Below the pieces are notes generated by a model. The model was not told the DNA's origin. It did not search any database and was given only the letters and a program-made list of their open reading frames with translations. Positions 9,054 to 44,187 of a DNA stretch of 64,000 bases are shown here, one piece after another. Origin of the DNA: Alloactinosynnema sp. L-07. GTDB taxonomy: Bacteria > Actinomycetota > Actinomycetes > Mycobacteriales > Pseudonocardiaceae. Every line of letters starts with the position of its first letter. Position 1 is the first letter of the stretch. The translations under genes were made by a program, and so were the position numbers. The DNA lies in NCBI RefSeq assembly GCF_900070365.1, contig NZ_LN850107.1, positions 1,550,001 to 1,614,000 of the forward strand. The letters are read 5' to 3'.

Positions 9054-9077
9054 TATCAGTTGTTATAACAACCGATA
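9054..9077. promoter_or_regulatory. MarR operator (24-bp near-perfect palindrome)
   Basis: On the minus strand the half-sites are TATCGGTTGTTA and TAACAACTGATA, which match as an inverted repeat at 11 of 12 positions. The site lies 15 nt before the start codon at 9039 and is AT-rich in a GC-rich genome. Its length and symmetry are typical for MarR dimers. Confidence 0.8.
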
Positions 9078-9135
9078 CTACCGCAATCGCCCGGCCCATG
9101 GGGCGTGGAGCGCGCCCGGGTGAGCGGGGACGCGG

Positions 9136-27663: not shown

Positions 27664-27699
27664 GGTGACCAGGTCTGCTCGCAGGCAGGCCTGGTCACC
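27664..27699. terminator. Shared hairpin terminator between convergent genes
   Basis: GGTGACCAGG (27664-27673) and CCTGGTCACC (27690-27699) form a perfect 10-bp stem 17 nt after the subtilase stop. The right arm contains the stop codon of the convergent Rieske ferredoxin gene, so the hairpin could serve both directions. Confidence 0.65.
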
Positions 27700-28854: not shown

Positions 28855-29504
28855 CGTGCCGTCACGTCGCGCAGGACGGCTTCCAGGCAGGAGTCCGCTG
28901 TGGACCCGGGTGCGGGGGTGACTCGGCCCGCGGTGAGGTCGGCGGCAAGCAGCGCGGCGGCGCGGTCGAGCCCGATGCGGACGCACGCGGCCAACTCGTC
29001 GACCAGACCGACCTGGTGGGGCAGGGCCCGCCGGAGCCGGTCGGTGTCCCGGGCGGTCTTCGCGTGCATGTTGGCCAGCGCCACCCCCGAGTGTTGGGCG
29101 TGGTGCGCGGTCAGGCCGCCGCCGACGGCGACCGTCAGGTGGTAGACGGTGTCGCTGACCCCGAGCACGCGGCGGATGTCGTCCGGAGCGTCCTCGGTGA
29201 GGATGCCCAGCTCAGGCAGCACCGACGGGTCGTAGAAGCGCAGCGTCCACCGGGTTCCGTCGTACTCGTCGACCACCGCCACCTCCGGGCCGCGGGGCGC
29301 GGGCAGGGCGTCGGTGGTGGCGACCAAGTGGAGCCGGTGGGCGGCCGCGGCGATCACGGTGATGTCGGCCGCGACGAGCGGCAGCGCCCCGCGCTCGGCG
29401 GGTGGCAGGTACCGCACGTGGTCCAGATAGGTCGTGTGCACGGCCCACACGTACTCCCGGACCGTGTCGCGCATCGCCTCCGGCGCCTTCTCCCGCACCT
29501 CCAC
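28851..29504 (-). CDS. Unrecognised protein encoded with the IclR regulator
   Basis: The family is not recognised. The product (about 217 residues from the GTG at 29504; an ATG at 29474 is also possible) is soluble and helical, with segments VREYVWAVHTTYLDHVRYLP, VVDEYDGTRWTLRFYDPSVL and a His-rich stretch LTAHHAQHSGVALANMHAK. A longer frame reaches 29573, but it would pass through the palindrome at 29539-29555, so a later start is preferred. The stop overlaps the IclR ATG by 4 nt, and the three minus-strand genes form one coupled unit (this gene, IclR, Rieske ferredoxin). It may be a ligand-binding or accessory protein of the pathway; there is no direct evidence. Confidence 0.55.
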   Translation of the reverse strand: MEVREKAPEAMRDTVREYVWAVHTTYLDHVRYLPPAERGALPLVAADITVIAAAAHRLHLVATTDALPAPRGPEVAVVDEYDGTRWTLRFYDPSVLPELGILTEDAPDDIRRVLGVSDTVYHLTVAVGGGLTAHHAQHSGVALANMHAKTARDTDRLRRALPHQVGLVDELAACVRIGLDRAAALLAADLTAGRVTPAPGSTADSCLEAVLRDVTAR

Positions 29505-29538
29505 AGCGTGACCCGTTCGAGCGCGGTCGGCACCTTGT

Positions 29539-29555
29539 GTTCCGTATAGCGGAAC
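29539..29555. promoter_or_regulatory. Likely IclR operator (17-bp palindrome)
   Basis: GTTCCG (29539-29544), spacer TATAG, CGGAAC (29550-29555): perfect 6-bp arms, a length and form common for IclR-family sites. It lies between the minus-strand regulator operon and the plus-strand dioxygenase operon that begins at 29597, well placed to control both. Confidence 0.65.
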
Positions 29556-29596
29556 GGTGCACCCGCCCGCCACGCTCCCGGCTTACGTTTTCCCAC

Positions 29597-30661
29597 ATGG
29601 TTGATGTGAACGGCGTCACAAGCCAGGCTGACCTGGCCGAGGGGACCCCGCCAGGCACGCGCCGGATGAAGGCGCCATGGGCGCCCCCCGACGGGGCACG
29701 GGTCGATCCGTCCGACACGCGTCAGGCCGGTCGCGCCACGGTCGCCGGTCCGCCCCGGGGCATCCTGCGGCTGGGCCACGTCGATGTGACGGTGACCGAC
29801 CTCGACCTCGCCACCGCGTACTACACCGAAGTGCTCGGGATGGAGATCACGGCGCTGACCGAGGACTCGGTCTACCTCAAGTGCTGGGACGAGGAGGACC
29901 ACCACTCGCTGCGGCTGCGCTATGCCCCGCGGATGGGCATGGACCTGATGTCCTTCAAGGTCCACCACGAGGACGACCTGGCCGACCTTGAGCACAAGGT
30001 CACCAGGTACGGCTTCCCGGTCGAGCGGATCAGCAAAGGGGAGTCGCTCGGCCAAGGGGAGTCGATCCGCTTCTCCACCCCGAGTGGGCACCACATGGAA
30101 CTCGTCGCCGACGTCGAGAAGGTCGGCACCTCCCGCCTCCGGCGCGACCCGCTCGACCCCCAGCCGCGGGACAGGATCCGCCCGCCGCGGATGGACCACA
30201 TGCTGATCACCACCGAGGAAGTCGGCGACTCGACGCGGTTCTACATGGACGTGCTCGGGTTCCGGATCACCGAGCAACTGCTCGACGGCAACGGCCACCA
30301 GCTCGGGACGTGGCTGGAGCGCTCGCACTCGCCGCACGACCTCGCCGTCGTCCACGGGGCCAACGGCGGCCTGCACCACTTCGCGTTCTGGCTCGACGAG
30401 TGGGACGACGTGCGCGACGCCGCGGATGTGCTGGCCTACAACGGAATCCAGCTCGACGTCGGTCCCACCCGGCACGGCATCACCCGCGGGTCCACCATCT
30501 ACTTCTTCGACCCGCTCGGAACCCGCAACGAGGTCTTCACCGGCGGATACCGGCCGGACCCGGACTTCCCGACCCTGACCTGGACCGAGGACAACATCGG
30601 ACGGGCCGTCTTCTACTACGAGGGCGAGCTCAACGACCGATTCATGAGGGTGCACACCTGA
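29597..30661 (+). CDS. Catechol 2,3-dioxygenase (extradiol, XylE type), first copy
   Basis: This Fe(II) enzyme opens catechols next to the diol to give 2-hydroxymuconic semialdehydes. It has two vicinal-oxygen-chelate domains. The catalytic C-terminal one has metal ligands in MDHMLI (His), NGGLHHFAFW (His) and TRNEVFTGGY (Glu), and the diagnostic DVGPTRHGITRG and IYFFDPLG. The end (NIGRAVFYYEGELNDRFM) matches classical XylE enzymes closely. About 55 extra residues precede domain 1 if the ATG at 29597 is used; an ATG at 29666 is an alternative. It is the first gene of the island, and its TGA overlaps the next ATG by 1 nt. Confidence 0.9.
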   Translation: MVDVNGVTSQADLAEGTPPGTRRMKAPWAPPDGARVDPSDTRQAGRATVAGPPRGILRLGHVDVTVTDLDLATAYYTEVLGMEITALTEDSVYLKCWDEEDHHSLRLRYAPRMGMDLMSFKVHHEDDLADLEHKVTRYGFPVERISKGESLGQGESIRFSTPSGHHMELVADVEKVGTSRLRRDPLDPQPRDRIRPPRMDHMLITTEEVGDSTRFYMDVLGFRITEQLLDGNGHQLGTWLERSHSPHDLAVVHGANGGLHHFAFWLDEWDDVRDAADVLAYNGIQLDVGPTRHGITRGSTIYFFDPLGTRNEVFTGGYRPDPDFPTLTWTEDNIGRAVFYYEGELNDRFMRVHT

Positions 30662-31572
30662 TGACCATTCTGCGACTGTCCCATGTGGAGATCCGGGTCC
30701 CGGACCTCGAACTCGCCACCGCGTACTACTCCGAGGTCGTCGGCATGATCGAGACCGGGCGCGACGAGTCCCGGGTGTTCATGAAGTGCTGGGACGAGCA
30801 CCAGCACCACAGCGTGGTCCTCACCTTGGAGCCCACGCACGGCCTGAACCACTTCGGTTTCAAAGTGACCGACGCTGAGGATCTCGACCACTACCAGGAC
30901 CGGCTCGAAGCCGCGGGGGTCGCGGTCCGGCGGTATTCCGCCGACGAATGGGCCCCCGGCCACGGCGCGGCGATCCGCTTCACCCTCCCGAGTGGACACG
31001 AGATGGAACTCGTGCACGGGATGCGGCAGGTCGGCAACCTCCTTCCGCAGACCAACCCGCCGCCGCGCCCGATGGGTCTCGTCGGTATTGCGCCCCCGCG
31101 CGTCGACCACGTGTTCCTGACCGCCGAGGAGGTGGACACGAACACCCGGTTCCTCAGCGAGCACCTCGACTTCCGGCTCACCGAACAGGTTCTGGGCGAT
31201 GACGGGTTCCAGATCGCCTGCTGGCTGGAGGTCTCGCACCGGTCGCATGACATCGCGTTCATCACCGGACCCAACCGCGGCCTGCACCACTTCGCCTACT
31301 GGGTCGACGGCTGGAACGACCTGCGCAACGCCGCCGACGCGTGCGTCTACCACGGGGTCAGCATCGAGACGAACCCGACGCGGCACGGGGCCACCCGCGG
31401 CCAGTGTCTCTACTTCTTCGACCCGGTGGGCAACCGGAACGAGATGTTCACCGGCGGCTACTGGGTCGACCCGGGTACCGAGCCGATCACCTGGACCGAG
31501 GCGGAGATGGGACGCGCGATGTTCTACTACGACGGCGTCGTCAACCAGCAGTTCCTCACGGTCCACAGCTGA
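30661..31572 (+). CDS. Catechol 2,3-dioxygenase (extradiol, XylE type), second copy
   Basis: This 303-residue paralogue of the upstream enzyme has the usual length and no extension. Ligand motifs are VDHVFL (His), RGLHHFAYW (His) and NRNEMFTGGY (Glu), with TNPTRHGATRG and LYFFDPVG. The two copies are similar along their length yet differ at many positions, so the duplication is old. Tandem extradiol enzymes usually split substrate range (for example catechol against alkylcatechols) or replace each other after suicide inactivation; mixed oligomers are also conceivable. TGATG coupling to the first copy implies near-equal expression. Confidence 0.9.
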   Translation: MTILRLSHVEIRVPDLELATAYYSEVVGMIETGRDESRVFMKCWDEHQHHSVVLTLEPTHGLNHFGFKVTDAEDLDHYQDRLEAAGVAVRRYSADEWAPGHGAAIRFTLPSGHEMELVHGMRQVGNLLPQTNPPPRPMGLVGIAPPRVDHVFLTAEEVDTNTRFLSEHLDFRLTEQVLGDDGFQIACWLEVSHRSHDIAFITGPNRGLHHFAYWVDGWNDLRNAADACVYHGVSIETNPTRHGATRGQCLYFFDPVGNRNEMFTGGYWVDPGTEPITWTEAEMGRAMFYYDGVVNQQFLTVHS

Positions 31573-31582
31573 GGGGCGGGCG

Positions 31583-32623
31583 ATGACCATCGAGAACGGC
31601 ATCGGCGCGCTGCCTCGCACCGAGCGACCTGACGCACCGGCGTACCTGACCCGCCACCTGTCCCGGAAGTCGGCGCCGGTCACGCCCGACCAGCCCGACG
31701 ATGACGGCACCCCGCTGTACCTGCGGCGGTTCCGCGAGAAGGACCACCGCGCCGACCCGGTCATGTTCGACGGCAACGTCATCGGCGCGTCGCGCGCCTG
31801 GGCCGAGGTGACCCGCACCAAGGAGATCGTCCCCGAGCGGCGCGACCAGCACGCGGCGATCGACTGCGACATCTACCTGGTGCGCCACGGCGAGACCCAG
31901 GGCTATTCCTCGGAGTCGGGGCTCACCCCGCTCGGGTCATGGCAGGCGCATCGGCGCGGCCAGGAACTGGCCAGGCGGGTCACCGACGGCATGGCGGTCG
32001 AGCTGCTGTGCGCCCCGACGAACCGGGCCAGGCAGACCGGCGAGCACCTGCGCCGCGGCCTGCTCGACAACGCCGGGCTGTTCGGCCGCGAACCCGTGAT
32101 CGGCGAACTGCACGACGACCGCAACTTCCGCAATTTCGAGGTCGCCACGCCCGACGGACCGCGCGACGTCACCAGCGCGTTCCGGACCTACCACCGGGTG
32201 ATGGAGAAGTACGAGCGCGTCGGCCTCGGGGAGCGGCCCGGCTGGCTCGTCGACGTCGACCGGTTCTGGGGCATCCAGCAGGGCGGCGGGGACCCGATCA
32301 CGCACTGGCTGACCATGCCCATGCTGCACTTCGAGCCGCCGGTGTCGTGCGTGCGCCGGTTCTGGCGAGGCATCCTCACCGCCAGGGCGAACACCGAGGC
32401 GCGCACCATCGTCGTGGCCACCCATTCCGGGCCGATCCGGGCGTTCGCCACCGCCGCCATGGGCTACGACCCGGGCGAGCCATTCAACACCGAGTTCGTC
32501 CGAGTCCGCCTCGTCGCGGGCGGGACAACCGCGCTGGTGCTCTACCGCAACCGCGTCCAGGAGGTCGTCATCCCCGACCTCGACGCGCTGCCGCCCAACT
32601 CCGACCCCCGTTTCCAGGAGTGA
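31583..32623 (+). CDS. Histidine phosphatase (phosphoglycerate-mutase superfamily)
   Basis: The 346-residue protein carries the RHG signature YLVRHGETQG (catalytic His near residue 98), the supporting Arg in CAPTNRARQTGEHLRRG, and the second catalytic His in VVATHSGPIRAF. About 90 residues precede the phosphatase fold and are of unknown role. The gene sits immediately before, and 4 nt from, the PEP-synthase-like kinase pair in the aromatic island. This suggests that it removes phosphate from an aryl phosphate formed there, as a phosphohydrolase does in the CreHI/CreJ/CreD alkylphenol system of Corynebacterium glutamicum. The substrate is inferred from position only. Confidence 0.75.
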   Translation: MTIENGIGALPRTERPDAPAYLTRHLSRKSAPVTPDQPDDDGTPLYLRRFREKDHRADPVMFDGNVIGASRAWAEVTRTKEIVPERRDQHAAIDCDIYLVRHGETQGYSSESGLTPLGSWQAHRRGQELARRVTDGMAVELLCAPTNRARQTGEHLRRGLLDNAGLFGREPVIGELHDDRNFRNFEVATPDGPRDVTSAFRTYHRVMEKYERVGLGERPGWLVDVDRFWGIQQGGGDPITHWLTMPMLHFEPPVSCVRRFWRGILTARANTEARTIVVATHSGPIRAFATAAMGYDPGEPFNTEFVRVRLVAGGTTALVLYRNRVQEVVIPDLDALPPNSDPRFQE

Positions 32624-32627
32624 CACC

Positions 32628-33725
32628 ATGGCCGACCACCCCACCGCCGTCCTCTTCGACGACCTCTGTCCCGAGCAGCACGCGCTCGTCGGCGGGAAGT
32701 GCGCGTCCCTGGGCACGATGAGCCAGGCGGGTCTGCCGGTCCCGCCGGGCTTCGCGGTCACGACGCAGGTGTTCATCGACGCGCGGGCGGCATCGGGGCT
32801 CATGCCCCGCATCAAGGAGTTGATCGACGACGTCGACCTCACCGATCAGGCGGCACTGGCCCGCGCGGCCGTCGAGGCGCGCGAACTGGTGCTGAGCTGG
32901 GGGCTGCCCGAGGTCCACGAGAAGCGCATCCGGCAGATGTACGCCGACCTCTGCGCGCGCTGCGGTGTCGAAGACGTCCCGGTCGCCGTGCGCTCGTCGG
33001 CGACGGCGGAGGACTCGCCGGACGCTTCCTTCGCGGGCGAGCACGACACCTACCTGTGGGTGTGCGGGATCGACGCGGTGCTGGAGAAGATCCGCGCCTG
33101 TTGGGCGAGCCTCTACACCGATCGCGCCATCGCCTACCGCGAAGAGATGCACTACGACCACAACCACGTGGACATGGCCGTGGCGGTCCAGAAGATGGTC
33201 CGGCCGCGCGCGGCGGGGGTCGCGTTCACGCTCGACCCGTCGAACGGGGACCGGTCGGGCATCTGCATCGACTCGGCCTGGGGTTTCGGCGAGGGCGTGG
33301 TGTCCGGTGACGTCACCCCGGACAACTTCCTGGTCGACAAGGTCTTGTGGGCCATCAAGCGGCGCACGGTCAGCCCCAAGACCCACGCCCACCTCCTGGT
33401 CGACGGGGTCGACTGCCCCCGAGTGGACCGGGTGCCGCTCGACGCCGACCGGGTGAGCGTGCCGTCGCTGACCGACGAGGAGATCGTCGCCGTCGCCCGG
33501 CTCGCCAGGACGGCCGAGAAGCACTACGGGTGCGCGCAGGACATCGAGTGGGCCGTGGACGACGACCTGCCCAGCGGCGAGGCGATCGTCCTGCTGCAGG
33601 CCCGTCCGGAGACGGTCTGGAGCAAGCGGTCGCACGCCGTCGCCGCGAAGTCCGACCTCGTCTCCTCGATCGTAGACACCCTCGTCAACCCCTTGTACGC
33701 CAGGAAGGGGTCGCAGCACACCTGA
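32628..33725 (+). CDS. PEP-synthase-like phosphotransferase, ATP-binding subunit (PpsB/CreH-like)
   Basis: This 365-residue protein corresponds to the N-terminal ATP-grasp part of PEP synthase only. It has the glycine-rich VGGKCASLGTMSQAGLPVP at the N-terminus, VAVRSSATAEDSPDASFAG (catalytic Arg), GFGEGVVSGDVTPD, the metal-binding QDIEWAV and the terminal LLQARPETVW. The swivelling phospho-His domain is absent and is encoded by the next gene. The same two-gene split is known from phenylphosphate synthase of Thauera (PpsA/PpsB) and the alkylphenol-phosphorylating CreHI pair. It should use ATP to phosphorylate the partner's His, leading to an aryl phosphate. Confidence 0.85.
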   Translation: MADHPTAVLFDDLCPEQHALVGGKCASLGTMSQAGLPVPPGFAVTTQVFIDARAASGLMPRIKELIDDVDLTDQAALARAAVEARELVLSWGLPEVHEKRIRQMYADLCARCGVEDVPVAVRSSATAEDSPDASFAGEHDTYLWVCGIDAVLEKIRACWASLYTDRAIAYREEMHYDHNHVDMAVAVQKMVRPRAAGVAFTLDPSNGDRSGICIDSAWGFGEGVVSGDVTPDNFLVDKVLWAIKRRTVSPKTHAHLLVDGVDCPRVDRVPLDADRVSVPSLTDEEIVAVARLARTAEKHYGCAQDIEWAVDDDLPSGEAIVLLQARPETVWSKRSHAVAAKSDLVSSIVDTLVNPLYARKGSQHT

Positions 33726-33798
33726 CACCGGGTCAGGTCGGCGGTCCACTCAGGACTGTCACCGCATCGATGTTCCACAGACCCGGAGGAGGGTCATC

Positions 33799-35610
33799 AT
33801 GGCCGATCGTTTCCCCAGCCCCTTCGAGATCGCGACGCCGTCCGGCGCGGAAGGCTGGCAGCAGCTCTACACCTACTCGGCGCTGTTCTGCGAGGAGCGC
33901 CGCGACTACGAGGACGGCGGGTTCTGGTTCCACGACGGGGTCCACTGGCCCGAGGCGCTGACCCCCTGGGACACCACGTTCCTGGAGTTCGCGATCGCGT
34001 CGCTGTCGCAGTACAACACGCGCCACTACATGATCCCGCCCGCGTACGGCGTCGACTACCGCATCCTCAACGGCTACGTGTTCCTCAGCCCGGTCCCGGC
34101 GCCTGCGGAGGAGATCGAGAGCCGCGTGCCGCTGTTCATGGAGCGCGCGGGCTTCTACTTCGCCAACTGGGACCGGCTCTACGACGACTGGCTGGTCAAG
34201 ATCCGCGACCTGGTGAAGCAGATGACCGAGCTGCGGATCGAGCCACTGCCCTCGATGGAGGACATCGAGGTGATCACCTCGGGCGCGGGCCAGGGCTCGG
34301 GCAACCACCTGCTCGCGTCGTACCACAAGCTGCTCGACCTGGCACTGACCCTGTGGCAGTACCACTTCGAGTTCCTCAACCTCGGCTACGCCGCCTACCT
34401 GGACTTCTTCGGGTTCTGCAAGGCCGCGTTCCCGTCCATCCCGGACCTGGCGATCGCCAAGATGGTCGCCGGGGTCGACGTCGACCTGTTCCGTCCGGAT
34501 GACGAGCTCAAGAAGCTCGCCCGCCTCGCGGTGAGCACCGGCATCGACGACCGCTTCACCGGTGCCGATGTCGCCCAACTCTGGGGGCGGCTGGGCGCCG
34601 ACGACGCCGGTCGGGCATGGATCGCGGAGTGGGAGCAGGCGGCCGAGCCGTGGTTCAACTTCTCCACCGGATCGGGCTTCTACCACTCGGACAAGATCTG
34701 GGTCGAGAACGTCGAGGTGCCGATCGGTTACGTCACCGACTACATCGTCAAGGTCAAGGACGGCGTCGACCTGGACCGACCGGTCGCGGCACTGCACGCC
34801 GAGCGCGACCGGGTCGTCTCGGAGTACAAAGAACTGCTCGACTCCGACGATGACCGCGCCGCGTTCGACGCGAAGCTCGGGCTGTCCCGGACGGTCTTCC
34901 CGTACGTGGAGAACCACAACTTCTACGTGGAGCACTGGGCGCATTCGGTGCTGTGGCGCAAGATGAAGGACCTGGGCGGCGTTCTCGTGTCGGCCGGGTT
35001 CATCGCCGAGCCGAACGATGTGTTCATGTTCCAGCGTTCGGAACTGTCCGACGTGCTCTTCGACATGTACGCGGGGTGGGCGATCGGCGCGCCGTCGCGC
35101 GGGCCCGGGTACTGGCCCGCCGAGATCCAGCGCCGTCACGGCATCCACAAGGCACTCAAGGGATGGTCGCCCCCGCCCGCCCTCGGCGTGCCGCCGGAGG
35201 TGGTGACCGAGCCGTTCACCGTCATGCTCTGGGGCATCACCTCGGACTCCGTCGCCGCGTGGCTCAACTCGGGAGAGGGCGCTGAGGAAGGCACCCTGAA
35301 CGGGTTCGCCGCCTCCCCGGGGCTCGTCGAGGGCCCGGCCCGCGTGATCTCCTCCGCCGACCAGATCGGTGAGATCCAGGACGGCGAGATCCTTGTCGCC
35401 CCGCTCACGGCGCCGTCGTGGGCCCCGGTGTTCGGCAAGATCAAGGCCACCGTCACCGATGTCGGCGGCATGATGAGCCACGCCGCCATCGTCTGCCGCG
35501 AGTACGGCCTGCCCGCGGTCACCGGCACCGCGTTCGGCACCAAGACCATCAAGACGGGCCAGCTGATCCGCGTCGACGGCAACAGCGGCACCGTCACCGT
35601 CATCGACTGA
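33799..35610 (+). CDS. PEP-synthase-like phosphotransferase, phospho-histidine subunit (PpsA/CreI-like)
   Basis: The C-terminal ~100 residues of this 603-residue subunit are the PEP-utilising swivelling domain: FAASPGLVEGPARVI, ILVAPLTAPSWAPVFGKI and GGMMSHAAIVCREYGLPAV, in which the His accepts phosphate. The preceding 500 residues are helical and do not match the PEP/pyruvate-binding barrel of PEP synthase, as in PpsA of phenylphosphate synthase, where the phenol site is expected. Size (about 68 kDa) also agrees with PpsA. With the upstream ATP-binding subunit it should convert a phenolic substrate plus ATP to an aryl phosphate, AMP and phosphate. A ribosome site GGAGGAGG precedes the ATG. 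Confidence 0.85.
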   Translation: MADRFPSPFEIATPSGAEGWQQLYTYSALFCEERRDYEDGGFWFHDGVHWPEALTPWDTTFLEFAIASLSQYNTRHYMIPPAYGVDYRILNGYVFLSPVPAPAEEIESRVPLFMERAGFYFANWDRLYDDWLVKIRDLVKQMTELRIEPLPSMEDIEVITSGAGQGSGNHLLASYHKLLDLALTLWQYHFEFLNLGYAAYLDFFGFCKAAFPSIPDLAIAKMVAGVDVDLFRPDDELKKLARLAVSTGIDDRFTGADVAQLWGRLGADDAGRAWIAEWEQAAEPWFNFSTGSGFYHSDKIWVENVEVPIGYVTDYIVKVKDGVDLDRPVAALHAERDRVVSEYKELLDSDDDRAAFDAKLGLSRTVFPYVENHNFYVEHWAHSVLWRKMKDLGGVLVSAGFIAEPNDVFMFQRSELSDVLFDMYAGWAIGAPSRGPGYWPAEIQRRHGIHKALKGWSPPPALGVPPEVVTEPFTVMLWGITSDSVAAWLNSGEGAEEGTLNGFAASPGLVEGPARVISSADQIGEIQDGEILVAPLTAPSWAPVFGKIKATVTDVGGMMSHAAIVCREYGLPAVTGTAFGTKTIKTGQLIRVDGNSGTVTVID

Positions 35611-35645
35611 CGCCCAGTCCCACACGAGCAAAGGAGACAACCGGC

Positions 35646-36902
35646 ATGCTCACGGTCGAGCAGAACGAAGAGCTGACCAGCGTCGGACCCGGTACGCGGA
35701 TGGGCGAGCTGTTGCGGCGGTACTGGTACCCCATCGCGTTCGAACAGGACTTCGACACCAAGCCCAGCAAGACCGTGCGGCTGCTGGGGGAGAACTGGAC
35801 GCTCTACAAGACCCCGTCCGGCCGCTACGGGATCATCGGCGAGGCATGCCCGCACCGCCGAGCGTCGCTCACCTACGGGGTCGTGCACGAGGACGGCATC
35901 CGGTGCGGCTACCACGGCTGGAAGTACGACTTCACCGGTCAGTGCGTCGAGCAGCCCGCCGAGAACGACAACACCACTTTCCGCGACAAGATCAAGGCGA
36001 AAGCCGGGTCGGCGCAGGTGATGGGCGGCATGGTGTGGGTCTACATAGGACCCGGCCCGGTGCCGGTGCTGCCGCGGTTCGACGTCTATGTGCTCGACGG
36101 CATCCGCGAGGTCGGCACCGCGACACTGCCATGCAACTGGTTCCAGATCATGGAGAACTCGGTCGATCCGCACCACGTCGAGTGGCTGCACGGCTACTAC
36201 TTCGAGTTCCTCGGCCAGACACAGGGATTCGAGGCGCCCAAGTCCTTCCAGAAGAAGCACATCAAGGTCGCGTTCGAGGAGTTCGAGTTCGGCATCATCA
36301 AGCGTCGCGTTCTCGAGGGCCACAGCGAGGAGAACGACGACTGGGCGGTCGGGCACCCGCTGATGTTCCCCTACGGCATGCGCGTCGGCGGCCAGTGGAT
36401 CGACCAGATGCAGATCCGGGTGCCGATCGACGACACCACGACGTGGAAGCTGTTCTACACACTGCACCACCCCGAGGGCGGGCAGTGGGAGAAGCAGGAC
36501 CGGCCGGTCGTCTACGAGTTCCCCTTCCGCGACGAGCACGGCGAGTTCATCACCGACTACGTCGAGGGCCAGGACGTCATGGCCTGGGTCTCCCAGGGCG
36601 CGATCACCGACCGCAGCCAGGAGCACCTCGGCCGCTCCGACCAGGGCGTGGCGATGCTGCGCAAAATGTTCAAGGAGGCGATGGCGGCGGTCGAAGACGG
36701 CGAGGACCCGCCCGGCGTGGTCCGGGAGGAGCACGACGTCATCACGCTGCCGTGCGAGAAGGACAAGTTCGGCGCGGGCACGGAGTTCACCGACGCGTGG
36801 ATCAACGGCGGATCCATGCGCTACAGCCCGATCCGCGAGCAGCTGCTCGCGCTGCACCGGGACGCGGCGGCGGCACGGGAGAAGGTCGGGTCCGGTGCGT
36901 GA
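35646..36902 (+). CDS. Rieske non-haem iron oxygenase, large subunit (phthalate-dioxygenase type)
   Basis: The 418-residue protein has a Rieske [2Fe-2S] domain (CPHRRASLTYG and CGYHGWKYD, residues about 68-92) and a catalytic domain with the mononuclear Fe motif ENSVDPHHVEWLHG (His, His and a later Asp). The C-terminal DRSQEHLGRSDQGVAMLRK is characteristic of the phthalate 4,5-dioxygenase/vanillate demethylase group, which works as alpha-only trimers with a fused reductase. No beta-subunit gene is present. In this operon it is expected to hydroxylate or demethylate the ring of the phosphorylated aromatic before dephosphorylation. Free phenol could instead be the substrate. The stop overlaps the next gene by 8 nt. 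Confidence 0.9.
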   Translation: MLTVEQNEELTSVGPGTRMGELLRRYWYPIAFEQDFDTKPSKTVRLLGENWTLYKTPSGRYGIIGEACPHRRASLTYGVVHEDGIRCGYHGWKYDFTGQCVEQPAENDNTTFRDKIKAKAGSAQVMGGMVWVYIGPGPVPVLPRFDVYVLDGIREVGTATLPCNWFQIMENSVDPHHVEWLHGYYFEFLGQTQGFEAPKSFQKKHIKVAFEEFEFGIIKRRVLEGHSEENDDWAVGHPLMFPYGMRVGGQWIDQMQIRVPIDDTTTWKLFYTLHHPEGGQWEKQDRPVVYEFPFRDEHGEFITDYVEGQDVMAWVSQGAITDRSQEHLGRSDQGVAMLRKMFKEAMAAVEDGEDPPGVVREEHDVITLPCEKDKFGAGTEFTDAWINGGSMRYSPIREQLLALHRDAAAAREKVGSGA

Positions 36903-37191
36903 CCTGACCAAGATCGCGGAGCGGGCGGCCCACCACGGGCCGATGCCCACGCTGCCGCCCGACCCGCACCGGCTGCCGCCGCCCGGCGACTGGTTCGCCT
37001 CCGACGCCGCCCACCACCTGCTGGACCGGCCGAGGTTCTGCCCGATGTGCGCGGCGTCGCTGGACGGCGGGCTGGTCTCCGAGTGGTGGAGCGGTGCGGA
37101 CCGCGTCTTCCTGACCTGGTGTCGGACCTGCCGGTGGACGGGGAACGTGGTGCAGTTCACCCAGGCCGTCATCGAGGAACCGGAGCACTGA
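36895..37191 (+). CDS. Small zinc-ribbon protein of the Rieske oxygenase operon
   Basis: This 98-residue protein has two CxxC knuckles, RFCPMCAASLDGG and WCRTCRWTG, separated by about 30 residues, i.e. a zinc ribbon. The N-terminal third is proline-rich. It overlaps the oxygenase gene by 8 nt and the HAD gene by 1 nt (TGATG), so it is made together with them. No known family was recognised. By analogy with zinc-ribbon partners of other oxidative and acyl-transfer enzymes it might stabilise the oxygenase or bind the aryl phosphate. This is an inference, and rubredoxin-like iron binding is an alternative because four Cys could also hold iron. Confidence 0.6.
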   Translation: MRDLTKIAERAAHHGPMPTLPPDPHRLPPPGDWFASDAAHHLLDRPRFCPMCAASLDGGLVSEWWSGADRVFLTWCRTCRWTGNVVQFTQAVIEEPEH

Positions 37192-37856
37192 TGGGCGCGC
37201 CCGCTCTCATTCTCGACTTCGGCGGCCCGGTGCTGCTGACGCCGTTCGAGCTGGTCGCCGACCAGCCGGGAACACCGGCGTACGACCTGCTGCACGGACG
37301 CGGGCCGCTGGCCACCCCCGACCACCCCGACCCGGCGTGGCAGGACCTGCAGGACGGGCGGATCACCGAGCGGGCGTACTGGGCCGACCGGTCGCGGGAG
37401 TGGCACGCGGCGGGCGGCCACGAGCCCGACATCCGGGCGATGATCGCCCACCTCTACGAGCCCCCGCGCCGGGAGCTGATCCGGCAGGCGGCCAGGGACC
37501 TGGTGTGTGACGCGCGGGCCGCCGGGCACCCGGTCGCCATCCTCACCAACGACCTGCGCGCGTTCCACAGCCAGGAGTGGGTGGACCGGATCGAGATCGT
37601 GGGCGACGTCGACGTGGTTGTCGACGGCTCGGTGGAAGGGCACCTCAAGCCCCATCCGCGGCTGTACGAGCTGCTGTCCGAACGGCTCGGCGTCGACTTC
37701 GCCGACATGGTCTTCCTGGACGACCAGCTGACCAACATCAGGGGCGCGCAGGCGCTGGGCATCACGTCGGTGTGGTTCGACCCCGCCGCCCCGGACGGCG
37801 CGTTCACGGAAGTCCGGGCCCGGCTAGGACTCGCGGAAGGTGAGTTCGATGGTTGA
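37191..37856 (+). CDS. HAD-superfamily hydrolase (probable phosphatase)
   Basis: The 221-residue protein has the HAD motifs: I as LILDFGGPVLLT (nucleophilic Asp, with Gly in place of the second Asp as in the DFGG subgroup), II as AILTNDLR, III as GHLKPHPRLYE (Lys) and IV as VFLDDQLTNIRGA. A cap insertion lies between I and II. It is a second candidate for dephosphorylating an aryl phosphate in this island beside the histidine phosphatase. The missing second Asp suggests it may prefer a different ester or act as a dehalogenase- or hydrolase-like enzyme. It is coupled on both sides (1-nt and 8-nt overlaps). Confidence 0.75.
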   Translation: MGAPALILDFGGPVLLTPFELVADQPGTPAYDLLHGRGPLATPDHPDPAWQDLQDGRITERAYWADRSREWHAAGGHEPDIRAMIAHLYEPPRRELIRQAARDLVCDARAAGHPVAILTNDLRAFHSQEWVDRIEIVGDVDVVVDGSVEGHLKPHPRLYELLSERLGVDFADMVFLDDQLTNIRGAQALGITSVWFDPAAPDGAFTEVRARLGLAEGEFDG

Positions 37857-38817
37857 ACAGCGCGAACTGCGGGTCTCGCAGATGACCTGGGAGTCCGACG
37901 GCGTCGTCTCGCTGCGCCTGACGCGCATCGAGAACGACAACCCGCTGCCGGAGTGGGAGCCGGGCGCGCACATCGACATCTATGTCCCCGACGGCACGAC
38001 GCGGCAGTACTCGCTGTGCGGGGACCCGGCCGACCGGTCCTTCTGGCAGATCGCCGTCCTGCGGGAAGCCGAAGGGCGGGGCGGCTCGGCGTTCGTGCAC
38101 GACGAGCTGCGCGTCGGCGACCGGCTCCTGGTGACCCGGCCGAAGAACCACTTCGCCCTGGAGGAGGCCCCGTACCACGCGCTGATCGCGGGCGGCATCG
38201 GGATCACGCCGATGATGGCGATGGCCGAGCGGCTCGCCCGCGAGGGCCGTCCCTTCCATCTCACCTACGGCGGGCGGGCCGCGGACTCCATGGCGTTCCG
38301 CCGCAGACTCGCCGCGCTCGGCGACCGGGTGACGTTCCTCGCCGAGGACACCGACGGCCGCCCCGACCTCGAAGCCATCGTGAAGGCGGTGCCGGACGGC
38401 GGGCTGCTGTACGTGTGCGGCCCGGTCGGCCTGCTGCGGGCGGTGGAGAAGGCCGCCGAGACCGTCCATGGTCCCGACCAGGATCTCATCCGGTTCGAGC
38501 TGTTCACCCGCACCGGGGTGGAGCCGCGCGAGCCCGCCGCCGTCGACTCCGACACCTACGAGCTGGTGCTGGTGAAGTCCGGCCACACCCTGCGCCTGAC
38601 CCCGGAGGCGAACATCCTCGACGTCGCGCTCGCGCTGGGCATCGAGGTCGAGAACGACTGCCGCGACGGCATCTGCGGGTCCTGCACGACCCAGATCGTC
38701 TCCGGCACGGTCGACCACCGAGACCTCGTGCTGACCAAGAAGGAGCAGGCCGCCATGGACACAATGATGGTCTGTGTCTCCCGCCCGACCTGCCCCCGGC
38801 TGGAGTTGAACCTCTGA
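37849..38817 (+). CDS. Phthalate-dioxygenase-type reductase (FMN, NADH, plant-type 2Fe-2S)
   Basis: This 322-residue single-chain reductase passes electrons from NAD(P)H to the Rieske oxygenase. The flavin domain has RQYSLCGDPAD; the nucleotide domain has HALIAGGIGITPMMAM and LLYVCGPVGLL; the C-terminal ferredoxin domain has CRDGICGSCTTQ with the fourth Cys in MMVCVSR. The order FMN-NAD-2Fe-2S is that of PDR/VanB and fits the VanA/phthalate-type oxygenase upstream. The ATG at 37849 has GGAAGGTGAG in front; a GTG at 37840 is also in frame. The TGA overlaps the next ATG by 1 nt. Confidence 0.9.
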   Translation: MVEQRELRVSQMTWESDGVVSLRLTRIENDNPLPEWEPGAHIDIYVPDGTTRQYSLCGDPADRSFWQIAVLREAEGRGGSAFVHDELRVGDRLLVTRPKNHFALEEAPYHALIAGGIGITPMMAMAERLAREGRPFHLTYGGRAADSMAFRRRLAALGDRVTFLAEDTDGRPDLEAIVKAVPDGGLLYVCGPVGLLRAVEKAAETVHGPDQDLIRFELFTRTGVEPREPAAVDSDTYELVLVKSGHTLRLTPEANILDVALALGIEVENDCRDGICGSCTTQIVSGTVDHRDLVLTKKEQAAMDTMMVCVSRPTCPRLELNL

Positions 38818-39605
38818 TGGACGCACTCACCCGCGCGGAAGCGGCCAGGAAGCTGCTCGACGCGTACGAGTCCGGCAAGCCGATCGCGCCGCTCACCACC
38901 ACCTACGACGATCTGTCCCTTGAGGACGCCTACGCCATCCAGCTGCTGCAGATCCACGAGCTCACCAGCGCGGGCCGCGTGGTCAAAGGGCACAAGGTCG
39001 GCCTGACCAGCGCGGCCATGCAGCGGCTGCTCGGCGTGAACGAGCCCGACTACGGTCACCTGCTCGACGACTTCTTCTACTTGGAACACGCGCCGATCCC
39101 GCTGAACCGATTCGTGCAGCCCCGGATCGAACCGGAGGTGGCGTTCGTCCTGAAACGCCCGCTGCGGGGGCCAGGAGTGACGGTGCATGAGGCGATCGCG
39201 GCCGTGGACTTCGTGTTGCCCGCACTGGAGATCGTGGACAGCCGGATCGAGGACTGGCGCATCGGCCTGTTCGACACGATCGCCGACAACGCCAGTTCCG
39301 GCGCCGTCGTCCTCGGCTCCAATCCGACCCCACTGGACACAGTGGACCTTCGGCTCGCTGGTGCCGTGATGACCCGCAACGGGTCCGTCGTCGGCACCGG
39401 CGCGGGCGGCGCGGTGCTCGGCTCGCCCATCACCTCGCTGGTGTGGCTGGCAAACACCGTCGGGGCCAGGGGAGTGACGCTGGATGCCGGGCACGTGATC
39501 CTGCCGGGCTCGGTGTGCGCCATGGTCCCCATCGTCGCCGGTGACACCTTCGCCGCCACCTTCGCCGGGCTGGGCACCGTCACCGCCCGGTTCGCCCGCA
39601 GCTGA
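38817..39605 (+). CDS. 2-oxopent-4-enoate hydratase (MhpD/XylJ type)
   Basis: This 262-residue lower-pathway enzyme adds water to 2-hydroxypenta-2,4-dienoate to give 4-hydroxy-2-oxovalerate. Family segments include [34 protein letters not shown] (metal-binding Glu), [11 protein letters not shown] and [12 protein letters not shown] paralogue lies at 41712-42503; the pair corresponds to the hydratase and decarboxylase partners XylJ and XylI, which form a complex. This copy, next to the aldehyde dehydrogenase/aldolase pair, is assigned as the hydratase because of the order usual in mhp and xyl operons, but the two roles could be swapped. Confidence 0.8.
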
Positions 39606-39615
39606 GAGGACGCAA

Positions 39616-40578
39616 ATGAAGAGCAAGGCCACGGCGGCCATTGTCGGGTCAGGGAACATCGGCTCAGACCTGATGTTCAAGCTGATGCGCCGCAGCGAGA
39701 TCATCGAACCGCGGTTCATGGTCGGCGTCGACCCGACCTCCGACGGCCTGCGGCGCGCCGCGCGGCTGGGCCTGGAAGCCAGCCACGACGGCGTCGACTG
39801 GCTGCTCAGCCGCGACGACCTGCCCGACGTCGTCTTCGAGTGCACCTCGGCGAAAGCGCACCAGGCCAATGCGCCGCGCTATGCCGAGGCGGGGATCCTG
39901 GCCGTCGACCTGACTCCGGCGGCCGTGGGCCCCTACCTCTGCCCGCCGGTGAACCTGTCCTTCAACCTCGACGCGATGAACGTCAACATGATCACGTGCG
40001 GCGGCCAGGCCACCGTGCCGATGGTGCACGCGGTCTCGTCCGTCGTGCCCGTGCCTTACGCCGAGATCGTCGCCTCCGTGTCGAGCCGTTCCGCGGGGCC
40101 CGGCACGCGGGCGAACATCGATGAGTTCACCGACACCACGGCGTCGGCGGTGGAAGCGGTCGGCGGTGCCGAGCGCGGCAAGGCGATCATCATCCTGAAC
40201 CCGGTGGAGCCGCCGCTGATGATGCGGAACTCGGTGTTCTGCGCCATCCCGCCCGAGGCGGGCGAACCGGGCGACGTCCAGGACAAGATCTTGGAGTCGA
40301 TCCACGCGATGGTCCGCACCGTCCAGGAGTACGTCCCCGGCTACCACCTGCGGGCGGATCCCCAGTTCGAGCCCGCCCGGGAGTCTTGGCGCGGCCAGGC
40401 CCGGGTGTTCATCCCCATCGAGGTGCGCGGCCGCGGCGACTACCTGCCCGACTACGCGGGCAACCTCGACATCATCACCGCCGCCGCGGCCAGGGTCGGG
40501 GACCTGATGGTCGCCCACCGGCTCGGCGTCGAGACCACCTGGAAGCCCGCCGAACTCGCCGAGAAGGCAGGAGTGTGA
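39616..40578 (+). CDS. Acylating acetaldehyde dehydrogenase (MhpF/DmpF)
   Basis: The 320-residue enzyme converts acetaldehyde, CoA and NAD+ to acetyl-CoA. It has the N-terminal nucleotide motif [19 protein letters not shown], the catalytic Cys in [18 protein letters not shown] (about residue 129) and the C-terminal [20 protein letters not shown]. It forms a channelling complex with the aldolase encoded 3 nt downstream. Length and motifs are those of the family with no anomalies. Confidence 0.92.
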
Positions 40579-40581
40579 CCC

Positions 40582-41712
40582 ATGGGTGACATGACCATCC
40601 GACCTGAGGACGTCCCCGTGGTGACCGGTGAGGTGACCGAAAGCGAGATCCTCGCGAACACCCCGGCAGCGGGGGGCGAGACGGACCTGCGGATCACCGA
40701 CTCGACATTGCGCGACGGGTCGCACGCGATGAGCCACCAGTTCACCGAAGCGCAGGTGCGCGGGGTGGTCGCCGCACTGGACAGCGCGGGCGTCCAGGTG
40801 ATCGAGGTCAGCCACGGCGACGGGCTGGGCGGGTCGAGCTTCAACTACGGCTTCAGCCTCGTCGACGAGTTCGACCTCATCGCCGCCGCGGTCGACGAAG
40901 CGACCCGCGCCAAGATCGCCATCCTGATGCTCCCGGGATTGGCGACGATGCGCGACCTCAAACGCGCGCGCGCCGTGGGGGCCTCGGTGGCCAGGATCGC
41001 CACCCACTGCACCGAAGCGGACGTGTCGATCCAGCACTTCGGCGAGGCCCGCGCGCTCGGGATGGAGACCGTCGGGTTCCTCATGCTCGCTCACCGCGCG
41101 AGCCCGGAAGTGTTGGCGCGGCAGGCAAGGATCATGGTCGACGCGGGCGCGCAGTGCGTCTACGTGGTCGACTCGGCGGGCGCGCTCGTGCTGTCCGATG
41201 CCCAGGCCCGCGTCCAGGCCGTGGTGGACGAGATAGGCCCGGACGGCGCGCAGGTGGGCTTCCACGGCCACCAGAACCTCAGCATGGGCATCGCGAACTC
41301 GGTGCTGGCCTACCAGTCTGGTGCCCGCCAGATCGACGGCGCGCTGTGCGCGCTCGGCGCGGGCGCCGGGAATTCGCCGACCGAGGTGCTGGCCGCGACC
41401 TTCGAGCGGATGGGGATCCGCACCGGTGTCGACCTCGGCGAGGTGCTCTCGGCCGCCGAGGAGGTCGTTCGCCCGTTCATCCCACGGCTGCCCTGGATGG
41501 ACCGCGCGTCGATCACCCAGGGCTATGCGGGCGTCTACTCGTCGTTCCTGCTGCACGCCGAGCGGGCCGCCGAGCGGTACGGCGTGCCCGCGCACGCCAT
41601 CCTGCAGAAAGTGGGGGAGTACGGCTACGTCGGCGGCCAAGAGGACATGATCATCGACGTCGCGCTCCAACTGGCGCAGGAGCGCGACCTCGCTGCGGTG
41701 GGAGCCCGGTGA
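40582..41712 (+). CDS. 4-hydroxy-2-oxovalerate aldolase (MhpE/DmpG)
   Basis: This metal-dependent aldolase splits 4-hydroxy-2-oxovalerate into pyruvate and acetaldehyde and hands the aldehyde to the dehydrogenase. The HMGL-like barrel starts with ITDSTLRDGSHAMSHQF (Arg-Asp of the active site) and contains GFHGHQNLSMGIANSVLAY (metal His residues) and the C-terminal communication domain. About 35 extra N-terminal residues come before the barrel; an in-frame ATG at 40591 is an alternative start. The TGA overlaps the next ATG by 1 nt (TGATG). Confidence 0.92.
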   Translation: MGDMTIRPEDVPVVTGEVTESEILANTPAAGGETDLRITDSTLRDGSHAMSHQFTEAQVRGVVAALDSAGVQVIEVSHGDGLGGSSFNYGFSLVDEFDLIAAAVDEATRAKIAILMLPGLATMRDLKRARAVGASVARIATHCTEADVSIQHFGEARALGMETVGFLMLAHRASPEVLARQARIMVDAGAQCVYVVDSAGALVLSDAQARVQAVVDEIGPDGAQVGFHGHQNLSMGIANSVLAYQSGARQIDGALCALGAGAGNSPTEVLAATFERMGIRTGVDLGEVLSAAEEVVRPFIPRLPWMDRASITQGYAGVYSSFLLHAERAAERYGVPAHAILQKVGEYGYVGGQEDMIIDVALQLAQERDLAAVGAR

Positions 41713-42503
41713 TGGGCGCGCGGTGGGACGTCGAGTCCGTGGCGGCGGAGTTGCTGCGGTGTGAGGACGAGCGGACCGCGCGCCCGCCGTTCTCCGACGA
41801 GTGGCCCGAACTCGACCTGGAGACCGGCTACGCGATCCAGGACCTGAACCTGCGCGCCCGTCTCGGTCGTGGCGAACGGCTGATCGGGGTCAAGCTGGGC
41901 CTGACCAGCCGGGCCAAGCAGCAGCGGATGGGCGTGCACGTCCCGTTCGTCGCCTGGCTGACCGACGCGATGATCCTGCCCGCCGGGGATCCGGTGCCGG
42001 GGTCACGCCTGATCCACCCGCGGGTCGAGCCGGAGATCGTCTTCTTGATGGGGGAACGGCTGGAGGGCCCCGGTGTGGGCTGCGCCCGGGCCATGTCGGC
42101 GGTCGCGTCGGTATGGGCGGGAGCCGAGGTCATCGACAGCCGCTACCGGGATTTCCGGTTCACCGCGGGTGATGTGGCGGCGGACAACGCGTCGTCCGGC
42201 GCGTTCGTGACCGGGCCGGTCGGGGTGCCGCCCGACCGGCTCGACCTCTCCCTGGAAGCGGTGCTCGTGGAGGTCGACGGCGTGGTCGTCGACTCCGCCA
42301 CCGGCGCGGCCGTCCAGGGGCACCCCGGCGAGGCGCTCGCGCTGGCCGCGAACGAACTCGCGCGGCGCGGCCACGCGATCGAGCCGGGCTGGATCGTCCT
42401 CACCGGGGGGATGACCGACGCCGTCCAGGCGCCGCCCGGGGTGTCGGTGGCGATGCACTTCACCAACCTGGGCTCGATCTACCTCAACGGCGGGGAGTCC
42501 TGA
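41712..42503 (+). CDS. 2-oxo-3-hexenedioate (4-oxalocrotonate) decarboxylase (XylI type)
   Basis: This 263-residue member of the hydratase/decarboxylase family is a diverged paralogue of the product of 38817-39605. Key segments are IGVKLGLTSRAKQQRMGV, HPRVEPEIVFLMGERL, EVIDSRYRDFRF and DNASSGAFVTG. It is placed between the aldolase and the tautomerase, i.e. with the oxalocrotonate branch, so it is assigned to the decarboxylation of 2-oxohex-3-enedioate to 2-oxopent-4-enoate. The assignment between hydratase and decarboxylase rests on gene order and should be read as tentative. Confidence 0.78.
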   Translation: MGARWDVESVAAELLRCEDERTARPPFSDEWPELDLETGYAIQDLNLRARLGRGERLIGVKLGLTSRAKQQRMGVHVPFVAWLTDAMILPAGDPVPGSRLIHPRVEPEIVFLMGERLEGPGVGCARAMSAVASVWAGAEVIDSRYRDFRFTAGDVAADNASSGAFVTGPVGVPPDRLDLSLEAVLVEVDGVVVDSATGAAVQGHPGEALALAANELARRGHAIEPGWIVLTGGMTDAVQAPPGVSVAMHFTNLGSIYLNGGES

Positions 42504-42715
42504 TGCCGTTCATCGAGGTGACGCTCGTCGAAGGCCGCAGCCCGGAACAGTTGCGGGCCCTGATCAGCGGACTGACCCGGGCGGCGGCGGAGGCCGTCGC
42601 CGCGCCCCTGGCGAGCATCCGCGTCGTCGTGCGCGAGGTGCCCGCGACGCACTGGGCGGCAGGCGACGTGACCATCGCCGAGCGCGCCACCGACCAACAG
42701 GGAGGCACACCATGA
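42503..42715 (+). CDS. 4-oxalocrotonate tautomerase
   Basis: The 70-residue subunit begins MPFIEVTLVEGRSPEQLR, so removal of Met exposes the catalytic Pro1. The Arg residues needed for substrate binding are present (GRSPEQLRAL; IRVVVREV). It interconverts 2-hydroxymuconate and 2-oxohex-3-enedioate in the oxalocrotonate branch. It overlaps both neighbours by 1-4 nt, and together with the dehydrogenase and decarboxylase it completes that branch. Confidence 0.9.
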   Translation: MPFIEVTLVEGRSPEQLRALISGLTRAAAEAVAAPLASIRVVVREVPATHWAAGDVTIAERATDQQGGTP

Positions 42716-44187
42716 GGCAGTTCTTCGGCCATGTCATCGACGGGGAGGAGGTCCCGTCCGTCGACGGCGGCACCTTCGAGGTGTGGAACCCCTGGACGCG
42801 GCAGGTGTGGGCGGACGCGGCCGAGGGGACAGCCGAGGACGCCGCCCGGGCGGTGACGAGTGCGCGGCGCGCGTTCGACGAGGGACCGTGGCCCCGGCTG
42901 GGCCGCGCCGCCCGGGCCGCGGCGATCCACCGGCTCGCCGACGTGATGGAGCGGCACGCCGACGAACTGGCCACACTGGACACGACGAACATGGGCAAGC
43001 CCTACGCGCAGTCCATGCACGACGTGGCCCGGTCGGTGTCGAACTTCCGGTTCTTCGCCGACCACCAGCGCGACCACTGCGGTGAGGTGTACCCGATGGA
43101 CACCGGGCACCACACCTACAGTGAGTACGGCCCCGCTGGGGTGGTCGCGGCCGTCAGCCCGTGGAACTTTCCGCTGATGATGGCGACGTGGAAGATCGCC
43201 CCGGCGATCGCGTGGGGGAACACGTGCGTGATCAAACCGTCGGAGGACACCCCCGCTTCGGTCACGCTGCTGGGCAAACTCGCCATCGAAGCCGACCTGC
43301 CTCCCGGCGTCATTAATGTCCTCAATGGACACGGCACGCCCGCGGGCTCGTCGCTGGTGGCCGACGACCGGGTCGACCGCGTGACGTTCACCGGGTCCTC
43401 GACCACCGGCAAACACGTGATGGCCTCGGCAGCCGCCCACCTGGCGCCGGTCTCACTCGAACTTGGCGGCAAGGGCGCGAACATCGTGTTCGACGACGCC
43501 GACCTCGACAACGCCGTGCGGTGGGCGGTCGAGGCGATCTTCCGCAACTCGGGCCAGATCTGCCTGGCAGGCTCGCGCCTCTTCGTCGCCACACCGGTCT
43601 ATGACGAGTTCATGGCCCGGTTCATCGAGGCCGCGGAAGGCCTGACCACCGGCGACCCGTTCGACCCCGCGACGCGATTCTCCAGCCTGGCCAGCAAGAG
43701 GCACTTCGACAAGGTCTCGGCGTATGTCAACGGCGTCGACCTCGACGGTGGCAAGGTCCTCACCGGTGGGATCGTCGAGGACGGCCGTTGGCTGGTGCGT
43801 CCCACCGTCATCACCGACCTGCCGCTGACCGCCCCGGCGTACCGCGAGGAGATCTTCGGCCCGGTCTGCGTCGTCAACCGCTTCGATACCGAGGATGAGG
43901 CCGTCCACCTGGCCAACGACACTCGCTACGGCCTCAACGCGATGCTGTTCACGGAGAACCTCTCCCGCGCGCACCGAGTGGCGTCCCGGCTCCGCGCGGG
44001 AACTGTCTGGGTGAACTGCTTCTTCATCCGCGACCTGCGCACCCCGTTCGGCGGGGTCGGCGACTCCGGCGTCGGCCGCGAAGGCGGCACGTTCAGCCGC
44101 GAGTTCTTCACCGAACCCAAGGCGGTGGTGATGCAGATCGACCGCGGCAAACAGGAGGTCGTGTCTGACAGATCGCGCCAGCGATAG
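42712..44187 (+). CDS. 2-hydroxymuconic semialdehyde dehydrogenase
   Basis: A 491-residue NAD-dependent aldehyde dehydrogenase that oxidises the ring-fission product to 2-hydroxymuconate. It has SPWNFPLMMATWKIAPAIAW, VTFTGSSTTGK (cofactor), the general base Glu in LELGGKGANIV, the catalytic Cys in NSGQICLAGSRLF, and EEIFGPV. The body is standard. The C-terminus is odd: the last ~10 residues (from VVSDRSRQR) are encoded inside foldback repeat B2, so the original stop has probably been lost or replaced by the element's insertion. It is the last gene of the island. Confidence 0.88.
   Translation: MRQFFGHVIDGEEVPSVDGGTFEVWNPWTRQVWADAAEGTAEDAARAVTSARRAFDEGPWPRLGRAARAAAIHRLADVMERHADELATLDTTNMGKPYAQSMHDVARSVSNFRFFADHQRDHCGEVYPMDTGHHTYSEYGPAGVVAAVSPWNFPLMMATWKIAPAIAWGNTCVIKPSEDTPASVTLLGKLAIEADLPPGVINVLNGHGTPAGSSLVADDRVDRVTFTGSSTTGKHVMASAAAHLAPVSLELGGKGANIVFDDADLDNAVRWAVEAIFRNSGQICLAGSRLFVATPVYDEFMARFIEAAEGLTTGDPFDPATRFSSLASKRHFDKVSAYVNGVDLDGGKVLTGGIVEDGRWLVRPTVITDLPLTAPAYREEIFGPVCVVNRFDTEDEAVHLANDTRYGLNAMLFTENLSRAHRVASRLRAGTVWVNCFFIRDLRTPFGGVGDSGVGREGGTFSREFFTEPKAVVMQIDRGKQEVVSDRSRQR

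Follow-up and report, generated by a model that had tools for sequence, protein, structure and literature searches.

A conserved actinobacterial operon pairs a two-component aryl-dikinase homologue with a Rieske oxygenase and may degrade phenols by way of aryl phosphates

We analyzed a 64,000-nucleotide stretch of the Alloactinosynnema sp. L-07 genome, which is 7.4 Mb in a single contig (NZ_LN850107.1, positions 1,550,001 to 1,614,000; hereafter the window, in whose coordinates all positions are given). At 29597–44187 it carries fourteen plus-strand genes that join a two-component kinase to a Rieske oxygenase, two phosphatases, and a catechol meta-cleavage pathway. This kinase-Rieske module is real, conserved, and specific. 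From the enzyme families, the gene linkage, and the kinase lineage, all established by sequence and genome comparison, we conclude that it represents a Rieske branch of aryl-phosphate catabolism that is found mainly in Actinomycetota and ends in catechol. The operon probably serves the catabolism of a simple phenol, which would be phosphorylated to an aryl phosphate, oxidized by the Rieske enzyme, dephosphorylated, and opened by meta cleavage; here we infer the order of the first three steps, the ester as the substrate of the oxygenase, and the identity of the phenol.

A first-pass annotation of this DNA had proposed a coupled operon in which a split kinase related to the Pps and Cre aryl kinases works with a Rieske oxygenase, in the place that a P450 occupies in the Cre system. 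Scanning the window's proteins against Pfam and NCBIfam models, we recovered every gene it had named where it had placed them, all on one strand, with 6 of the 13 junctions overlapping and the remaining gaps 3–73 bp long, apart from the largest, of 208 bp, just 5' of the last gene. Its identification of the kinase and its exchange of a Rieske enzyme for the P450 both stand, as described below. What it left unnamed were HpeHI/AcvAB, the best-characterized relatives (PMC9618137, PMC12167813).

A homologue of two-component aryl dikinases

The kinase is encoded by two adjacent plus-strand genes. The ATP-grasp subunit (32628–33725; HpeI/CreI/PpsB type) contains PF01326 alone (E 3.4e-108). The 603-aa subunit (33799–35610; HpeH/CreH/PpsA type), which is predicted to supply the swivel, the substrate-binding part, and the phospho-acceptor histidine, contains PF00391 alone, at its C-terminus, and scores up to 858 bits against the PRK08296 subfamilies of NCBIfam. 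Neither subunit matched a phosphoenolpyruvate (PEP)/pyruvate-binding barrel domain in the family scans, and PEP-synthase models scored far under their cut-offs on both. Subunits from Cre-type, Pps-type, and Hpe-type reference clusters matched the same NCBIfam families as the window kinase. These references were named by their gene content and taken from named plasmid records of Rhodococcus oxybenzonivorans and R. ruber (Cre-type), Azoarcus KH32C (Pps/Ppc), and Rhizobium (Hpe-type), none being the experimentally studied copy. The window kinase is ~54% identical to the two Rhodococcus copies and 49.5% identical to that of Azoarcus KH32C.

The swivel motif of the window kinase reads TDVGGMMSH, and the pattern T/SxxGGxxxH was present in all 64 Rieske-labelled sequences of the comparison described below. 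PMC12167813 gives this same motif for a subfamily of two-component dikinases in aromatic catabolism that comprises HpeHI, CreHI, and PpsAB. The top solved structure for the ATP-grasp subunit was 9goj (E 5.3e-76), whose molecule name is 'Phosphoenolpyruvate synthase'; we take it to be HpeI because Dexter et al. 2025 (PMC12167813) report an HpeI crystal structure. Judged by sequence, the window kinase is a two-component aryl dikinase homologue, in the company of HpeHI, CreHI, and PpsAB, and not a PEP synthase.

CreHI, which serves 4-cresol catabolism in Corynebacterium glutamicum, is a two-component aryl dikinase like that of the window, and the Cre system proceeds from kinase to oxygenase to phosphohydrolase. 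The Cre-type clusters in our comparison (L085, L086, L094, and L095) encode a P450 with ferredoxin and reductase, a short-chain dehydrogenase/reductase, an aldehyde dehydrogenase, and a protein with an HD domain; in the two Rhodococcus plasmid clusters, the reductase is a flavin adenine dinucleotide (FAD) reductase and a 2Fe-2S protein is present. The window instead encodes a Rieske oxygenase, histidine and HAD phosphatases, and meta-cleavage enzymes; as the first-pass annotation had stated, no P450 was found, here among 42 window proteins scanned (a subset of the window's open reading frames [ORFs], 10 of them scanned against NCBIfam only). The HpeHI/AcvAB hydroxyphenylethanone kinases share the split architecture and the swivel motif with the window, and a phosphatase follows there too. 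However, they feed a biotin-dependent carboxylase, HpeCBA, and yield vanillate or 4-hydroxybenzoate, whereas family scans found no biotin-dependent carboxylase gene in the window operon. PMC9618137 presents Hpe as kinase, carboxylase, and phosphatase. The subunits of PpsAB phenylphosphate synthase are likewise homologous to the window kinase, but the Pps cluster of Azoarcus KH32C includes a CBS-domain subunit and a phenylphosphate carboxylase, neither of which was detected in the window operon by family scans. By analogy, Hpe and Cre may be regarded as precedents with the same logic as the route proposed here.

Citing the MarK paper, PMC13101465 puts the cases in which kinase and carboxylase genes cluster at only 52 of 836, from which we infer that many such kinases have partners other than a carboxylase. 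The partner chemistries in the clusters we compared are P450 oxidation, UbiD-type carboxylation, and biotin carboxylation; Rieske oxidation would be a fourth. No description of a kinase-Rieske pathway was found in the open-access literature searched, which is not proof of absence, and the word Rieske does not occur in the main text of either HpeHI paper (PMC12167813, PMC9618137).

Conservation and specificity of the kinase-Rieske pairing

A scan of a genome collection turned up relatives of the 603-aa subunit in 192 stretches, and for comparison of loci we used the best 80 of these, a sample that leans toward close relatives. A tree of 92 large subunits, from which 11 loci representing the window itself or duplicate regions were excluded and which was midpoint-rooted for drawing, placed the window kinase in a group of 72 sequences with a support of 96 in the Shimodaira-Hasegawa-like approximate likelihood ratio test (SH-aLRT). 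Its neighbor is the P450-linked Cre-type group (SH-aLRT 82 for the join). Further Hpe-type clusters were found at L088, L097, and L099; L097 combines an Hpe-type cluster with Cre-like genes and received the P450 label from our script, yet its kinase falls with the Hpe type.

A relative of the window's Rieske oxygenase was present in the locus or genome for 70 of these 72 kinases. Our script detected an uninterrupted gene in 64 of them, counting the window; the copy in Nocardioides halotolerans (L062) contains one internal stop (TGA), the copy at L064 is cut off by a contig end, and four further loci (L044, L068, L074, and L076) end shortly past the kinase, each of these genomes encoding a 73–78% identical Rieske elsewhere. 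In 61 of the 63 Rieske-labelled loci other than the window, the oxygenase gene lies directly downstream of the kinase on the same strand, at a median gap of 88 bp (the exceptions are L072 and L075). A single weak match to the Cre P450 appeared among these 63 loci (L060, 28.6% identity). The block of catechol 2,3-dioxygenase 1, catechol 2,3-dioxygenase 2, histidine phosphatase, ATP-grasp subunit, swivel subunit, Rieske oxygenase, and a small four-cysteine (Cys4) protein recurs in Nocardioides, Micromonospora, Nostocoides, Nanopelagicales, Acidimicrobiia, and metagenome bins of other labels, and because it does so in so many lineages, a chance arrangement is excluded. Within the kinase tree, a single group shows this kinase-Rieske pairing, and there it is conserved.

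The same association was seen across an even sample of 296 genomes from the window's class. At E<=1e-100, 17 of them encode the large kinase subunit and 11, including the window's own, the Rieske oxygenase; all 11 are among the 17, and their kinases are 64–100% identical to that of the window. The other six genomes, whose kinases are 47–56% identical, had no Rieske match even at E<=1e-40. Kinase and Rieske genes lie within 170 bp of each other in 10 of the 11 genomes and on different contigs in G264.

At one locus of the group, L072 (Pseudonocardia bannensis, 2056–7324), a further Rieske-Cys4-HAD set sits next to an additional, distant kinase pair (26–29% and 38–39% identity), perhaps an independent kinase-Rieske partnership.

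Oxygenase, phosphatases, and the proposed route

The Rieske oxygenase (35646–36902, plus strand; PF00355, PF19301) resembles phthalate dioxygenase and LigXa, and its catalytic motifs are intact. Across the 64 sequences, CxH...CxxH was found in 63 and ExxxDxxHxxxxH in all. Phthalate-type dioxygenases are its best solved folds, and its relatives are at present annotated as 'dehydrodivanillate O-demethylase'. PMC12445078 lists the carboxylate-binding residues of phthalate dioxygenase (PDO; R207, R244) and isophthalate dioxygenase (IPDO; R234, H257) of Comamonas testosteroni KF1. Unlike in those enzymes, these residues are not conserved in the window Rieske by profile alignment, which is weak around R207 and uses an inferred offset of 23 for the IPDO numbering. 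Five basic residues (K219, R220, R221, R246, and R258) are invariant among the kinase-linked Rieske sequences.

Directly downstream, and missing from the gene list of the first-pass annotation, is a 98-aa protein with a CxxC...CxxC arrangement (36895–37191, plus strand) and no Pfam or NCBIfam match. Relatives occur in 34 of 36 long loci, meaning those that extend 9 kb or more upstream and 4 kb or more downstream, where detection was by likeness to the window copy and paralogues may be counted. In Peribacillus, a 66-aa ORF that resembles it by eye (L103:9320–9520) adjoins a Rieske gene near which no kinase is annotated, and because of this the Cys4 protein probably serves the oxygenase.

Two phosphatases flank the kinase and oxygenase genes on the same strand: a histidine phosphatase (HisP) with an ~95-aa N-terminal extension (31583–32623; PF00300, E 5.6e-14) and a HAD phosphatase of subclass IA (37191–37856; PF00702, E 1.1e-13). 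Of 47 loci that extend 6 kb or more upstream and 2.5 kb or more downstream, 46 have one or the other, a count in which HAD matches may include unrelated HADs; the sole exception, L063, also has no Rieske gene. HisP relatives occur in 31 of the 36 long loci. Where the window HisP has RHG, eight loci have RHA, and five of these eight carry the label Acidimicrobiia. HisP is a candidate aryl-phosphate phosphatase. HisP and catechol 2,3-dioxygenase 2 (together 30661–32623) tend to occur as a pair or not at all, and they remain adjacent in the rearranged clusters L069 and L075.

In the route we propose, the dikinase would transfer the beta-phosphate of ATP through the swivel histidine to the phenolic hydroxyl, giving an aryl phosphate. 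The Rieske oxygenase and its reductase would then carry out an oxidation ortho to the phosphate, either hydroxylating the ring or, with guaiacol as substrate, removing the O-methyl group, to give a catechol monophosphate, from which HisP, the HAD phosphatase, or both would release catechol or a 4-alkylcatechol. Catechol 2,3-dioxygenase would open the ring, and the dehydrogenase-decarboxylase branch of the meta pathway would lead to pyruvate and acetyl-CoA. A decarboxylase branch without a hydrolase suits catechol or 4-substituted catechols, and no meta-pathway hydrolase was found in the operon, so phenol, p-alkylphenols, and guaiacol (by demethylation) are the candidate substrates. Ordinary cis-dihydroxylation is disfavored because no dihydrodiol dehydrogenase was found among the operon genes or the families common to at least six loci. 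An ATP-dependent activating enzyme also precedes a Rieske oxygenase in aniline dioxygenase systems, whose product is catechol; there, activation is glutamylation of the amine, whereas here it would be phosphorylation.

The lack of a dihydrodiol dehydrogenase would also suit a route in which phosphate is the leaving group: the Rieske enzyme would dioxygenate C1 and C2 of the aryl phosphate, forming an unstable product that loses phosphate to give catechol directly, much as amine or amide is lost in the reactions of anthranilate and aniline dioxygenases. The phosphatases would then have a salvage role. The phthalate-type dioxygenase folds fit this as well, as do the four long loci that have the Rieske gene and no HisP. 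The near-universal presence of HisP or HAD, as in Hpe, where a phosphatase acts, speaks against it, and we regard it as unlikely though arguable. Kinase and oxygenase could alternatively have parallel functions, with the Rieske enzyme acting on a free phenol or aryl ether and the kinase and phosphatases serving to trap or buffer its substrate, or to supply a second one to the same catechol pathway; given that the two genes co-occur across genomes and that kinase-tree groups track the partner enzyme, we consider this unlikely.

It is more doubtful still that the kinase phosphorylates a nitrogen or a heterocyclic hydroxyl, as of aniline or hydroxypyridine, before the oxygenase makes a diol. Such synthases are reported to form phenylphosphoamidate from aniline in Desulfatiglans anilini (PMC7500099), and PMC6525221 cites a Rhodococcus rhodochrous PY11 dioxygenase that adds two hydroxyls to 2-hydroxypyridine. 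However, both ring-cleavage genes of the operon score above the curated cut-off for catechol 2,3-dioxygenase, and a carbon-only meta route makes up the lower pathway. The PY11 system, HpoBCDF, reportedly includes kinase-like components. It is highly improbable that the two kinase genes encode a split PEP synthase or a pyruvate dikinase and have no aromatic role, as automatic names such as 'PEP-utilizing enzyme' on relatives of the kinase would have it: the subunits match PF01326 and PF00391 with no barrel, all PEP-synthase models fall far short, and the genes are linked to aromatic catabolism.

Several observations weigh against the phosphorylation-first route or its generality. The loci were selected by likeness to the window's own kinase, as the best 80 of 192, and the tree was built quickly, with SH-aLRT as its only support, a midpoint root, and a join to the Cre group of 82. 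Two members of the 72-sequence group, L063 and L069, have no close Rieske relative in locus or genome. At L063 (Pseudonocardia asaccharolytica, 3844–11848), where both kinase parts lie in one 972-aa ORF, a gene of the diiron phenol/methane/alkene hydroxylase type near the kinase takes the place of the Rieske gene. HisP is absent from L049, L055, L062, and L072, long loci that contain the Rieske gene, although each has a HAD relative. Two class genomes, G051 (contig C124) and G068 (contig C26), each encode a second Rieske of 54–55% identity on another contig than the kinase. All five invariant basic residues recur in the Peribacillus Rieske that has no annotated kinase, and they therefore do not single out a phosphate-specific pocket.

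On balance, we lean toward a broader form of the aryl-phosphate route: an undescribed kinase-initiated branch whose Rieske oxygenase is specific for aryl phosphates, giving catechol phosphate or expelling phosphate, and which would be a recurrent means of oxygen-dependent phenol scavenging in Actinomycetota, including Nanopelagicales and Acidimicrobiia from metagenome bins. If so, aryl phosphates would be, to our knowledge, a new substrate class for Rieske oxygenases, and genes now called 'PEP-utilizing enzyme' and 'dehydrodivanillate O-demethylase' in many environmental actinobacteria would be renamed. Being self-contained, the module is also relevant to the question of why cells invest ATP in the ring before oxygen attack.

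Remaining operon genes and flanks

The operon opens with catechol 2,3-dioxygenase 1 (29597–30661; TIGR03211, 365.7 bits against a cut-off of 320.2), whose start is uncertain since homology begins at ~29741, and whose stop overlaps the start of catechol 2,3-dioxygenase 2 (30661–31572; 364.9 bits). Catechol 2,3-dioxygenase relatives occur in 34 of the 36 long loci, as do Rieske relatives. Past the HAD gene, also on the plus strand, lie the NAD-binding 2Fe-2S reductase for the oxygenase (37840–38817; PF00175, PF00111), a 2-oxopent-4-enoate hydratase (38817–39605; top match TIGR03220, 275.9 bits, under the cut-off of 408.8), an acylating acetaldehyde dehydrogenase (39616–40578; TIGR03215, 423.8 bits, cut-off 282.25), a 4-hydroxy-2-oxovalerate aldolase (40582–41712; TIGR03217, 474.6 bits, cut-off 286), a 4-oxalocrotonate (2-oxo-3-hexenedioate) decarboxylase-like protein (41712–42503; top match TIGR03218, 225.9 bits, under the cut-off of 350.55), and a semialdehyde dehydrogenase of HpaE/2-hydroxymuconic type (42712–44187; top matches TIGR02299 and TIGR03216, both under cut-off). 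The window-type reductase and the semialdehyde dehydrogenase were found in only 15 and 13 of the 36 long loci, respectively.

A divergent flank that the first-pass annotation passed over often recurs with the operon. It comprises, on the minus strand, a Rieske-type ferredoxin (27695–28249; top NCBIfam match NF007422, under cut-off), an IclR-family regulator (28087–28986; TIGR02431, E 3.1e-45, under cut-off), and a 240-aa protein of unknown family (28851–29573; no Pfam or NCBIfam match). Relatives were present in 26, 36, and 33 of the 36 long loci, respectively, the IclR count possibly including other IclR genes. Alignment of the unknown-family protein revealed invariant histidines (HHxxH..., RD), and its confident predicted model had no convincing PDB match.

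To the right of the operon is an NF041680-family transposase (44379–45896). Besides the window's genome, the class sample includes a single member of the genus, and that genome has neither the large kinase subunit nor the Rieske at E<=1e-100, which together with the adjoining transposase suggests that the operon was acquired. Elsewhere in the window, all on the minus strand, are a glutamine synthetase-like gene (19025–20383), ~9 kb from the operon and outside the recurrent families, a large CHAT-domain protein with TPR repeats (57302–60658), and an AAA_11/AAA_12 helicase-type protein with a C-terminal DUF2726 domain (9136–11937).

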